Positions 12,865 through 36,600 of a DNA stretch of 36,843 nt are shown here, in pieces; positions within the stretch are counted from its first letter, which is position 1, and every line of letters begins with the position of its first letter. A model generated the notes under the pieces. It saw nothing but the letters and a program-made list of their open reading frames with translations. It was not told where the DNA came from and made no database searches. The stretch is taken from NCBI GenBank assembly GCA_019136545.1, contig JAGVUA010000047.1, forward strand, positions 1 through 36,843. The letters are read 5' to 3'. The translations under genes and the position numbers were made by a program. Source of the stretch: Betaproteobacteria bacterium. Its GTDB lineage: Bacteria; Pseudomonadota; Gammaproteobacteria; Burkholderiales; Rhodocyclaceae.

Positions 12865-12888
12865 GGCGTGCCGCCATGGCTGACTTTC
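12865..12888 (-). repeat. 24-bp dispersed repeat, copy 1 (intergenic)
   Basis: Intergenic copy between hemA and prfA, in minus orientation. It matches the exact consensus (as at 32847-32870) at all but one base, CATGG replacing CGTGG. It occupies a third of the 72-bp gap and lies before any prfA ribosome binding site. Confidence 0.75.
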
Positions 12889-12915
12889 ACTGCCCATTTT
12901 CAGCCCATCGTTTCC

Positions 12916-13992
12916 ATGAAATCCAGCATCCGCGACAAGCTCGAACAACTGACCCGCCGCAAGGAGGAACTCGACGCCATCCTCGGCGACGAGGCGGCGA
13001 CGCGCGACATGGACAATTACCGCAAGCTGACGCGCGAGCATGCCGAGATCGAGTCGGTGGTGGCGCTCTATGGCGCCTATGGCGCGGCCGAAGCGAACAT
13101 CGCCGCCGCGCGCGAGATGCTGGCCGATCCCGAGATGAAGGAGATGGCGCAGGAGGAGATCGTCGCCCGCGAAGCCGACATCGAGCGGCTCGACGGCGAA
13201 TTGCAGAAGGCGCTGCTGCCGAAGGACCCCAACGACGAACGCAACCTATTCCTGGAAATTCGTGCCGGCACCGGCGGCGAAGAATCGGCGCTGTTCGCCG
13301 GCGACCTTTACCGTATGTACACGCGCTACGCCGAGCGGCAGGGCTGGAAAGTCGAACAGGTCTCGGCCAGCGAGTCCGACCTCGGCGGCTACAAGGAAGT
13401 GGTCGTGCGCATCGCCGGCCAGGGCGCCTACTCGAAGCTCAAGTTCGAGTCGGGCGGCCACCGCGTCCAGCGCGTGCCCGAGACCGAGGCGCAGGGCCGC
13501 ATCCATACCTCCGCGTGCACCGTGGCGGTGCTGCCGGAAGTCGACGCGGTCGCCGATGTGAACATCAATCCGGCCGAGCTGCGCATCGACACCTTCCGCG
13601 CCAGCGGCGCCGGCGGCCAGCACATCAACAAGACCGACTCGGCGGTGCGTATCACCCACCTTCCGACCGGCATCGTCGTCGAATGCCAGGACGACCGCTC
13701 GCAGCACCGCAACAAGGCGCAGGCGATGAGCGTGCTGGCGGCGCGCATCAAGGATGGCCAGGTGCGCGAACAGCAGCAGAAGATCGCCAGCGAGCGCAAG
13801 AGCCTGATCGGCAGCGGCGACCGCTCCGAGCGCATCCGCACCTACAACTTCCCGCAGGGCCGCGTCACCGACCACCGCATCAACCTGACGCTCTACAAGC
13901 TCCAGTTCGTCATGGATGGCGATCTCGACGAACTGGTCGCCGCGTTGACGGCAGAGCACCAGGCCGAACAACTCGCCGCATTGGCGGAATGA
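12916..13992 (+). CDS. prfA: Peptide chain release factor 1
   Basis: RF1 recognises UAA and UAG at the ribosomal A site and triggers peptide release. The 358-residue product has the GGQ motif at 233-235 ([14 protein letters not shown]), whose Gln is methylated by the product of the next gene, prmC. The codon-recognition loop lies earlier, at about residues 180-195. The start is the ATG at 12916 ([12 protein letters not shown]), as in family members. Its stop overlaps the prmC start (ATGA at 13989), coupling the factor to its modifying enzyme. Confidence 0.97.
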
Positions 13993-14795
13993 ATCTCGTC
14001 GAAGCCTTGGCGCAGGCGCGCGGCCGCATCGCCTCCGCCGAAGCCAAGCGGCTGCTGCGCCACGTGCTGGCCATCACCGCCAGCGAAGTCGCCGCCCATC
14101 CGGAACGGGCGCTCGACGAAAGTCAGTCGTCGCGCTACGCCGAACTGGTGCAACGGCGTGCGGCGGGGGAGCCCGTTGCCTACCTCGTCGGCAGCCGCGA
14201 ATTCTATGGCCGCGATTTTCGCGTTACGCCGGCGGTGCTGATCCCGCGGCCCGAGACGGAACTGCTGATCGAGCTTGCGCTGACGAAAGTCAGCCGTGGC
14301 GGTACGCCGAGGATGCTCGATCTCGGCGCGGGCAGCGGCTGCGTGGCCATCACGCTGGCGCTCGAACTCGGCTGCGCGGTGACGGCGGTCGATGTCTCGG
14401 TCGAGGCGCTCGCCGTCGCGCGCGACAACGCGGCGCGGTTTGGCGCGCGCGTGAATCTCGTCGAGAGCGACTGGTTCGCCGGCGTCGAAGGCCGCTTCGA
14501 GCTGATCGTCGGCAATCCGCCTTACGTGGCCGAAGGCGATGCCCATTTGCGCGACCTCGCCTTTGAGCCGATGACGGCGCTGGCCTGCGGCGCCGACGGC
14601 CTGAATGCCATCCGTCGCATCGTCGCCGACGCGCCGCGCCATCTGACCCCCGGCGGCTGGCTGCTGCTGGAGCATGGCTACGACCAGGCCGCAGCGGTCG
14701 CCGCGCTGCTGGCAGGCGCGGGTTTCGTGGCCGTCGAGCAGCACCGCGATCTGGCAGGCATCGTGCGCGTCAGTGGTGGTAGAATGCCCGACTAA
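13989..14795 (+). CDS. prmC: Release factor glutamine methyltransferase
   Basis: PrmC transfers a methyl group from S-adenosylmethionine to the Gln of the GGQ motif in RF1 and RF2. The 268-residue protein has the SAM-binding motif LDLGAGSGC (about 111-119) and the catalytic NPPY at 176-179. The ATG at 13989 overlaps the prfA stop. Unusually, it carries two copies of the 24-bp dispersed repeat. One encodes ESQSSRYA (about residues 44-51) in the N-terminal helical domain. The other encodes KVSRGGT (about 100-106) in the linker just before the SAM-binding strand. Both are at sites where family length varies, so function should survive. Confidence 0.95.
14118..14141 (+). repeat. 24-bp dispersed repeat, copy 2 (in prmC)
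   Basis: Sense-strand copy inside prmC, read in frame as ESQSSRYA. It has the conserved first half (GAAAGTCAGTCGT) and the CGCC end, with a variant middle. It closely resembles the copy in amgK at 36094-36117. Confidence 0.7.
14285..14308 (+). repeat. 24-bp dispersed repeat, copy 3 (in prmC)
   Basis: Sense-strand copy inside prmC, differing from the copy at 32847-32870 at a single base. It is read in another frame than copy 2 (KVSRGGT) and falls in the linker before the SAM-binding motif. Confidence 0.85.
14780..14785 (+). promoter_or_regulatory. Likely extended -10 box of grxD
   Basis: TGGTAGAAT is an extended -10 (TGn plus TAGAAT) inside the last codons of prmC, giving a leader of about 34 bases to the grxD ATG at 14826. 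This suggests grxD can be expressed apart from the hemA-prfA-prmC run. Confidence 0.4.
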
Positions 14796-14825
14796 ATCAA
14801 TCAGCTTTTAGTCGAGGAGCCGAAA

Positions 14826-34919: not shown

Positions 34920-34927
34920 GCGCGCGA

Positions 34928-35590
34928 TTATAGGTGCGCGCGCACCTCGGCATCGAGCGCGGCGAGCCGCTCGGGCGTGCCGACATCGACCCAGCGGCCG
35001 GTGTGGGTTTGTCCGGAAACGCGGTCGGCGGCCATCGCCTCGCGCAGCAGCGGCGCCAGCTTCGCCGGCTGGCCGCGCGCGACGGCGGCGAACAGCGCGG
35101 GACGGTAAATGCCGATGCCGGCGAAAGTCAGTCGTGGCGGCGCGCCGACTACGCGGTTATCCTTCAGATCGAAGTCGCCGCCGGCGTTGTGCCCGGGGTT
35201 CGGCACCAGCACCAGATGCGCGAGATCATGGTCGGCGAGCGCCGGCAGCGTAGCGAAATCGAGATCGCACCAGATGTCGCCATTGACGACCAGGAAAGGA
35301 TCGCTGCTTAACAGCGGCAGCGCGTTGGCGATGCCGCCGGCGGTTTCCAGCGCACCGGGCGGTTCCCCGGCGTAGCGGATCGATACGCCCCAGGCGGCGC
35401 CGTCGTCGAGCAGCGCCTCGATCTGGTCGCCCAGGTGGGCGTGGTTGATGACGATGTCGCGGATGCCGGCGCGCGCCAGCCGCTCCAGGTGCCAGACGAT
35501 CAGCGGTTTGCCGGCCACCGGCAGCAGCGGTTTCGGCGTGCGGTCGGTGAGCGGCCGCATGCGTTCGCCGCGACCGGCGGCGAGGATCAT
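34928..35590 (-). CDS. murU: MurNAc-1-phosphate uridylyltransferase
   Basis: A 220-residue nucleotidyltransferase that makes UDP-MurNAc from MurNAc-1-phosphate and UTP in the cell-wall recycling route known from Pseudomonas. The signature [23 protein letters not shown] and the metal-binding NGDIW are intact. The first ATG is at 35590, but relatives begin MKAMILAAG, and here the same residues are preceded by a CTG at 35599 that overlaps the amgK stop as CTGA; the true start may be that CTG, giving 223 residues. An antisense copy of the 24-bp repeat encodes GAPPRLTF before AGIGIYRP. It follows amgK, its partner in the pathway. Confidence 0.9.
35123..35146 (+). repeat. 24-bp dispersed repeat, copy 7 (antisense in murU)
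   Basis: Copy lying antisense to murU; the gene reads its complement as GAPPRLTF. It differs from the ubiH copy at two positions (T for C after GTCAG, G for A near the end). It is the only genic copy in antisense orientation. Confidence 0.8.
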
Positions 35591-35595
35591 CGCTT

Positions 35596-36600
35596 TCAGA
35601 AAGTGTACCCCGCTTGCGCCTGGCGGTTTTCGGCGAGGTCGAGGATGCGCAGCAGCGGCGTCAGGTCCCGGTAGCGTTGGCAGGCGGCGCGCAGATATTT
35701 GGCCACCAGCGGCATGTCCTTGAGATAGCCGTCCTTGCCGTCGCGGTGGTAGAGGCGCGCGAAAATGCCCAGCACTTTCACGTGGCGCTGCACGCCCATC
35801 CATTCGTAGTCGCGGTGGAAGTCGCCGAAGTCGGCGCGCACCGGCAGGCCGGCCTTCCTCGCTGCCTGCCAGTAGCGGATCAGCCAGTCGAGCGTGCGTT
35901 CTTCCGGCCATTCGATGTAGGCGTCCTTGAACAGCGAGACGAGGTCGTAGCTGATCGGCCCGTAAACGGCATCCTGGAAATCGACGATGCCCGGATTGGG
36001 CGTCGCGACCATCAGGTTGCGCGAGTGGTAGTCGCGATGGACATAGACGGCCGGCTCGGCGAGATTGACGGCGAGGATTTTTTCGAAGACGGCGGCGAGC
36101 TGCGACGACTGACTTTCGGACAGCGTCAGCTTCAGGTGCTGCGCCAGGTACCAGTCGGGAAACAGGTCGAGCTCGCGCTGGAGCAGCGCGCGGTCGTAGG
36201 GCGGCAATTCGTTCGGCCGGCTGGCGAGCTGGATGCGGATCAGCGCGTCGATGGCAGCGCGGTAATGCTCGTCGGCGTTGGCCTCGGTAAGTGCGGCCAG
36301 GTAGGTCGTCGCGCCGAGATCGGACAGCAGCAGGAAGCCGCGGTCGAGGTCGGTGGCGAACACTTCCGGCACGTGCGCGCCGGCATCGTGGCACAGCCGC
36401 TGCACGTGCAACCAGGGCCGCACGTCCTCGTGGCTGGGCGGCGCATCCATGACGATGCGCGTCGTGCCATCGTCGAAGGTGGCGCGCAGGTAGCGCCGGA
36501 AGCTGGCATCGGCGGAAGCGGGCGCGAGCGTAAAAGGCCGGCCGGGGGCCAGCCGCTCGATCCACTCGCTGATTTGCCGCTGACGCTCCACCTGGTGCAC
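35596..36600 (-). CDS. amgK: N-acetylmuramate/N-acetylglucosamine kinase
   Basis: A 334-residue phosphotransferase that phosphorylates the anomeric carbon of MurNAc (and GlcNAc), feeding MurU. It has the aminoglycoside-phosphotransferase catalytic loop [13 protein letters not shown] and the metal-binding [21 protein letters not shown]. The start is a GTG at 36600 ([13 protein letters not shown]); a GTG three codons later is an alternative. A copy of the 24-bp repeat encodes ESQSSQLA near residue 165. It is divergent from lptD, as amgK-murU also lies beside lptD in Pseudomonas. Confidence 0.92.
36094..36117 (-). repeat. 24-bp dispersed repeat, copy 8 (in amgK)
   Basis: Copy on the sense strand of amgK, read as ESQSSQLA, the same frame and nearly the same peptide as copy 2 in prmC (ESQSSRYA). 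The first 13 bases are conserved and the middle deviates from the reference in the same manner as copy 2. Confidence 0.7.

Follow-up and report, generated by a model that had tools for sequence, protein, structure and literature searches.

A dispersed bipartite 25-bp motif of Rhodocyclaceae genomes as a probable DNA uptake sequence

The 36,843-nt stretch of DNA considered here (the window, contig JAGVUA010000047.1 of a bacterium of the family Rhodocyclaceae) is scattered with copies of a short repeat, for which a first-pass annotation had offered three candidates: a DNA uptake signal, a chromosome-organising motif and a coding-tolerant selfish repeat. The repeat is probably a DNA uptake sequence of the kind represented by the DNA uptake sequence (DUS) of the Neisseriaceae and the uptake signal sequence (USS) of the Pasteurellaceae. 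Its overrepresentation, its occurrence on both strands, its origin by substitution, its clade-specific dialects and its sporadic loss can together be read as the genomic signature of such sequences. We infer function from this signature because it matches that of the uptake sequences in these two families; that the motif raises uptake, what its receptor might be and that these species would be transformable are presumed from the same analysis.

The window belongs to assembly G000 (3.40 Mb, 162 contigs; G numbers designate genomes, g numbers genera and f numbers families, and several of the genomes are incomplete). A search of this whole genome with GAAAGTCAGNCGTGGCGGNNCGCC, allowing up to three mismatches as the first-pass annotation had suggested, retrieved 233 + 226 = 459 matches versus 0 + 1 for the reversed-pattern control, which establishes the overrepresentation. 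A weight matrix was then seeded with every AAAGTCAG found in a 436.8-kb sample of G000, composed of 20 stretches of 20 kb and the window, equivalent to about 13% of the genome and taken from contigs with known matches. The matrix settled at 109 sites and 29.5 bits, with 108 sites at score 14 and 101 at score 20; a single second-order Markov shuffle gave 2 and 1, respectively. The matrix of a second genome, G010, comprised 68 sites in 400 kb with 32.5 bits, and middling scores were rare among the sites of both genomes. Matrices were also built for G023, G173 and G151; as these slid into codon periodicity, they were not used. Since the G000 sample is slightly rich in matches (67 at three mismatches versus 58.9 predicted from the genome rate), the genome total is perhaps 750-850 sites.

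The motif is 25 bp long and bipartite, consisting of one 5' base, AAAGTCAG, 11 bp and CGCCG at a fixed spacing. The information resides in positions 2-9 (AAAGTCAG, box 1) and 20-25 (ACGCCG, box 2), the middle being weaker and the flanks flat. Among the 93 AAAGTCAG words of the G000 sample, 76 are accompanied by box 2 in register, exactly in 39 cases and with one mismatch in 37. The two-box pattern occurs 488 times in G000 at the correct spacing versus 0 times with a gap one base too long, and this off-register pattern stays at background level across 395 genomes, G000 included. The top word of an unbiased 8-mer scan lies within box 1 in G000, G010 and G023. Codon usage, which had been named as a possible source of the counts, was ruled out by synonymous-codon shuffling within genes: the shuffles gave a mean of 13.9 sites (maximum 19 in 20 runs) versus 78 real ones in G000, and a mean of 7.75 (maximum 12) versus 49 in G010. 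The value of 13.9 is a generous control because the shuffle preserves the protein. The G010 sample (L132-L151) is also strongly enriched in the words TCTCTGTG and CTCTGTGT, the first occurring 31 times versus 1.0 expected; they apparently belong to an unrelated repeat.

The distribution of the motif is centred on a minority of the family. A dialect-tolerant pattern with one mismatch is abundant (69-686 matches) in 21 of 150 Rhodocyclaceae genomes, including the window's own. These come from 9 of the 68 genera, and counts in the remaining 129 genomes are 0-14, with G149 (5) and G084 (1) among them. The 379 genomes examined across the order include 12 from the family; none of the other 367, which represent 50 other families, holds more than nine copies. 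Two forms of the motif could be distinguished. The A8 pattern, AAAGTCAG-11-CGSCG, was counted in 395 genomes and is high in four of the six genomes of g1 (G000 488, G066 146, G114 254, G150 226), in 13 of the 16 genomes of g11 (180-515) and in G023 of g24. The G8 pattern, AAAGTCGG-10-ACGSC, reaches 142-683 in 14 genomes of g2, g9, g20, g39, g47 and g65. The A8 pattern numbers 0-5 in the 14 G8 genomes, and the G8 pattern 0-10 in the seven motif-rich g1 and g11 genomes tested. The A8 (AAAGTCAG; g1, g11, g24) and G8 (AAAGTCGG) dialects are mutually exclusive by genus, G023 being mixed (81 and 17, respectively).

Low-copy sisters were encountered in three genera, with A8 counts of 4 in G149, 4 in G151, 10 in G173, 51 in G287, 23 in G333 and 2 in G084. 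Another dialect was sought in such sisters, and no long word was prominent in 354 kb of G173, except GGGGGGGG, or in 227 kb of G151. The GGGGGGGG word of the motif-poor G173 (L272-L291) yields 46 counts, overlaps included, versus 1.3 expected, and the G tracts of this genome might be phase-variable. In G045 (g46), all seven matches read AAAGTCGAC...GGC, position 9 being A and not G; this form is perhaps a further dialect that the patterns used undercount. The nearly motif-free G083 has five of its seven dialect-tolerant matches within 41 kb (G083:C1:1461266-1502266), on one strand and near the G8 consensus, and this segment was possibly received from a motif-rich relative. Outside the family, matches were recorded in G475 (f38; 9), G428 (f35; 7) and G162 (f12; 4). 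The listed matches of G475 and G162 are near-perfect, both dialects being represented in G475, and they are possible traces of transfer from Rhodocyclaceae.

Within the window, the eight copies of the first-pass annotation are joined by one further clear copy and one weak one, both found with the weight matrix:

4695..4718, plus strand: clear motif copy, GAGAGTCAGGCTTGGCGCAACGCC, matrix score 26.6, absent from the first-pass annotation; located where a phage-integrase gene (3968-4690, minus strand) meets an NmrA-like gene (4700-5542, minus strand), both identified by Pfam
12865..12888, minus strand: motif copy in the hemA-prfA gap, which extends in our gene call from the HemA end at 12843 to the PrfA start at 12916
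14118..14141, plus strand: motif copy in prmC (Pfam PrmC)
14285..14308, plus strand: motif copy in prmC (Pfam PrmC)
18935..18958, plus strand: motif copy in a sensor histidine kinase gene, AlgZ-like (Pfam His_kinase)
20844..20867, plus strand: weaker motif copy, matrix score 23.5, upstream of hemC (HemC by Pfam)
24901..24924, plus strand: motif copy in hemY (Pfam HemY_N)
32847..32870, minus strand: motif copy in a UbiH-like FAD monooxygenase gene (Pfam FAD_binding_3)
35123..35146, plus strand: motif copy in a MurU-like nucleotidyltransferase gene (Pfam NTP_transferase)
36094..36117, minus strand: motif copy in an AmgK-like phosphotransferase gene (Pfam APH)

Each of the eight copies originally reported is present at its coordinate, all eight end in CGCC, and Pfam agrees with the host genes that had been named, including the placement of two copies in prmC. 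The octamer GAAAGTCA had been described as mostly running on into the repeat, and it does so in six of its eight occurrences in the window (exceptions at 18055 and 26399). The core CGTGGCGG, attributed to most copies, is exact in four of the eight (14285, 24901, 32847 and 35123), so that 'most' was slightly generous. The first 12.8 kb, said to be free of the repeat, contain the clear copy at 4695-4718.

Six of the window sites were aligned to relatives. The prmC site at 14285 is retained in G150 (21/24) and G066 (23/24), decayed in the motif-poor G149 (17/24) and unlike in G151, while the neighbouring site at 14118 is missing in G066 and G150 and survives as a 20/24 remnant in the motif-poor G149. 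The hemY site at 24901 is retained in G114 (22/24) and missing in G066 (10/24); the sites at 18935 and 20844 are both missing in G066 and G150. At the hemA-prfA site, box 1 and the middle are also present in the genus mates G066, G150, G114 and G149. Because presence differs among the aligned relatives, the sites are gained and lost between close relatives. The annotation had also considered that all sites could be ancestral residues conserved in distant orthologues; in such orthologues unrelated sequence stands at the six aligned sites instead. The G066 prmC copy (L184, ~3260) carries 21 extra bases in mid-motif, with a CCCC-ATGC-GGGG inverted repeat.

These alignments also address the origin of the copies. 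According to the selfish-repeat candidate, the element would insert itself into genes, its 24 bp preserving the reading frame, and the use of five of the six possible frames, never the one giving TGA (0/81 in G000, 0/50 in G010), is in keeping with such a tolerance. Relatives, however, show much the same length at the coding sites. Among the 52 site-relative pairs available for ten coding sites, some of which represent the same place viewed from two genomes, the length agrees within 9 bp in 43 and differs by a multiple of three in 45, and a loss of at least 20 bp in the relative is seen in one pair only. On this ground insertion was rejected as the origin of the coding copies, which appear to have arisen by replacement of existing sequence. 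The result is different outside genes: the hemA-prfA spacer of four genomes (four intergenic sites) displays a loss of at least 20 bp in 10 of 33 pairs and two gene-edge sites in 4 of 8 pairs, making 14 of 41 altogether. The check proposed in the annotation, whether relatives lack the insertion, speaks against insertion at coding sites, whereas insertion may have occurred at the spacer and gene edges, and the selfish-repeat candidate is largely refuted for the coding sites only. REP- and MITE-type repeats are likewise dispersed and short, with some located within genes. The motif is distinguished from them by a non-palindromic consensus and by coding copies that are not inserted, and its flanks are almost without information, which also argues against self-insertion. 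On the whole, a self-inserting element is very improbable as an explanation. A similar gap test served to argue that the USS of H. influenzae are not insertions (PMC1626085).

The history of the motif was traced on a single gene, PurH. In its tree, all six motif-rich genomes included belong to a group of ten with weak support (86/54). Two low sisters, G149 and G151, are part of this group, and two motif-less genomes, G017 and G014, are found at its base, where the branching is unresolved. Support is better (98/82) for a group of six in which the g1 and g11 genomes are placed; the G8 genomes G019 and G008 fall outside it. The tree splits g1, as G149 joins G010. As far as one gene can tell, this topology suggests that the G8 dialect is the older one and that loss of the motif has occurred.

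On the chromosome, sites are evenly divided between the strands (55/55 in G000, 36/33 in G010) and mostly lie wholly within called genes (81/110 and 50/69). Non-coding sites are nevertheless in excess in G000, with 17 intergenic and 12 partial sites among 110 versus about 10 expected, and convergent gaps account for 6 sites in 3.6 kb (G000) and 2 in 8.9 kb (G010). The distance between sites averages 3.8 kb and is slightly more even than random (coefficient of variation 0.82 versus 0.98, P 0.023). Bins of 2 kb that are poor in GC contain 2 sites in 9 bins (G000) and 1 in 17 (G010), compared to 0.52 and 0.36 per bin elsewhere. Two opposite-facing copies 62 bp apart were noticed on contig 55 of G000 (L123, ~7287-7375); they recall the inverted pairs of uptake sequences found at terminators in H. 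influenzae.

Hundreds of long sites of fixed spacing and slightly even spread would suit a DNA-binding protein, and the second candidate, in which a chromosome-organising or nucleoid protein binds the motif genome-wide, draws on this property; matS, KOPS and the SMC loader are examples of such sites and proteins. Strand bias relative to replication had been suggested as a check. In 20 samples of the G010 chromosome, with the origin assumed at the start of the contig (the position of a DnaA-like motif), 40 sites are lagging and 28 leading. This possible weak lean would become 45 to 23 with a boundary at 1.5 Mb; a comparison of the chromosome halves gives no significance (Fisher P 0.20). Genera that differ in concert and six sisters nearly free of the sites would hardly be expected of an organiser that is vital, and the turnover of sites between close relatives also speaks against it. 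The organising candidate accounts for the long, fixed-spacing sites and poorly for the dialects and losses, and we regard it as unlikely. An intracellular signal for recombination or repair, comparable to Chi, or the target of a DNA-modifying enzyme would equally be expected genome-wide, on both strands and mostly within genes. Chi-like sites are short and strongly strand-biased, however, and only a weak lean is seen here; modification targets are short as well, while the motif carries about 30 bits. Both of these explanations are highly unlikely.

The uptake signal is the candidate that the data support, through overrepresentation, strand symmetry, dialects, substitution in genes, sporadic loss and the few sites in GC-poor DNA. 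A number of observations weigh against it. With about 1 site per 4 kb, the motif is less dense than the neisserial DUS. Insertion is possible at the spacer and gene-edge sites described above. No bias towards gene termini was detected in 75 (G000) and 46 (G010) coding sites, whereas the uptake sequences of Pasteurellaceae are biased to them (PMC2346458). The copy next to the integrase gene of the window and the presence of the motif on some contigs of the viral collection count on the same side. Scarcity in recently acquired DNA would be expected of an uptake sequence, and GC-poor bins hold few sites, yet copies are found beside this integrase and, six in number, on a contig with integrase and ParB genes. 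Finally, none of the genes tested tracks the motif. ComEC, a competence gene whose presence fits the uptake reading, turned up in 16/17 motif-rich genomes, 4/6 low ones and 15/15 motif-less ones, and the three genomes in which it was missed are incomplete assemblies; it is equally common without the motif and thereby eliminated as a discriminating gene. A pilin of the ComP_DUS family (PF16732) is near-universal (21/22 motif-rich, 6/6 low and 34/36 motif-less genomes), which rules out that it tracks the motif. In G000 the ComP-like pilin has a net charge of 0, unlike the basic ComP of Neisseria.

Further pilin genes were inspected. The ComP_DUS pilin gene of G000 adjoins a FimT-like gene, and minor pilins of the FimT/GspH type were rejected as discriminators, since they are present in high and low genomes alike. 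A strongly basic prepilin was also sought, over some 13% of the G000 sequence and 6-15% of that of four other genomes, and nothing decisive emerged. A pilin cluster with an MshC-like minor pilin, putatively of the MSHA type, was recognized in six motif-rich genomes of four genera (G000, G150, G121, G224, G023 and G019). In G000 it occupies 9731-16057 of L122 (contig 55), and its MshC-like minor pilin is slightly basic (pI 8.9). All occurrences of this minor pilin that were recorded are in motif-rich genomes. Little weight can be given to the lack of it elsewhere, since the search overlooked the protein of G000 itself, and the minor pilin is to be considered as a lead only. The transformability of relatives receives weak support from one wastewater study, in which Zoogloea was among the recipients of an added plasmid (PMC10257627).

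In the IMG/VR viral collection, the strict G8 pattern occurs in 82 stretches and the A8 pattern in 2; 40 of the 80 loci examined carry a single site and a few reach a host-like density. L413, the contig with integrase and ParB genes and the sole locus checked for origin, bears six copies with at most two mismatches between 1766 and 9046. Its density of six copies per 13.4 kb is similar to that of bacterial hosts, and it may be a mobile element that has taken on the tag of its host. Another contig of the collection, L360, displays five exact G8 copies in a row (883-2238), three of the four steps measuring 316 bp, in the manner of a tandem array.

The letters of the DUS are unrelated to those of the Rhodocyclaceae motif. 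The resemblance to the neisserial DUS-ComP system lies in the presence of a ComP-family pilin in the genome, and that to the Neisseriaceae DUS in the many copies, the single-base dialects conserved within species and the existence of relatives without the motif (PMC3630211). The differences are a length of 25 bp in two boxes versus 10-12 bp, a ComP-family pilin that does not track the motif, and fewer copies, N. meningitidis having about 1900 DUS 10-mers (PMC3630211). Conservation of the DUS has also been found to exceed the average of aligned sequence (PMC2397512). According to Berry et al., variants of the DUS with one or two altered bases are impaired, and a commensal has a ComP that reads its own variant (PMC3868556); the concerted change of dialect observed here would imply a reader of this kind. 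Likeness to the Pasteurellaceae USS is found in a strong core with further conserved positions, an origin by substitution and two subclade types, and competence defects are documented in some species of that family (PMC1626085). The USS belongs to another lineage and has a core AAGTGCGGT or ACAAGCGGT with AT-rich flanking parts, as opposed to AAAGTC(A/G)G and a GC-rich second box here.

The mechanism that we propose can be summarized as follows. A surface receptor, probably a minor pilin of a type IV pilus, would bind the 25-bp duplex, reading box 1 (AAAGTCAG), the weaker middle and box 2 (ACGCCG), and would thereby favour the import of motif-bearing fragments. Imported DNA from kin would recombine into the chromosome, so that point mutations creating or perfecting a site would spread by biased gene conversion. 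This conversion would keep hundreds of sites alike, and a concerted drift would lead to genus dialects. Upon loss of the receptor or of competence in a lineage, the sites would no longer be renewed and would decay. Whether the motif constitutes an independent third code for the recognition of self DNA, that is, a 25-bp bipartite signal that is centred on Rhodocyclaceae, has two or more mutually exclusive dialects, has disappeared on several occasions and is recognized by a receptor outside the ComP family, is a proposal that we hold to be evenly balanced. Under this proposal AAAGTCGG would perhaps be older than AAAGTCAG, with variants in the middle and box 2 besides, and the receptor would perhaps be the MshC-like minor pilin of the MSHA-type cluster.

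No uptake sequence for Rhodocyclaceae appeared among the open-access papers listed (at most 20 per search, of up to 2,087), as covered by titles and the beginnings of abstracts with subscription journals mostly outside, and the novelty is therefore provisional. In the papers cited here, uptake sequences are those of Neisseriaceae and Pasteurellaceae; Rhodocyclaceae, represented in this analysis by environmental assemblies, would be a third family, with a longer, bipartite signal in several dialects. If the uptake reading is true, natural transformation is implied in these bacteria, and they would make it possible to examine independently what drives the evolution of such signals, whether selfish drive through biased uptake or selection for kin DNA. 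The motif would also serve as a marker of DNA moved between lineages, because stray near-perfect copies stand out elsewhere.

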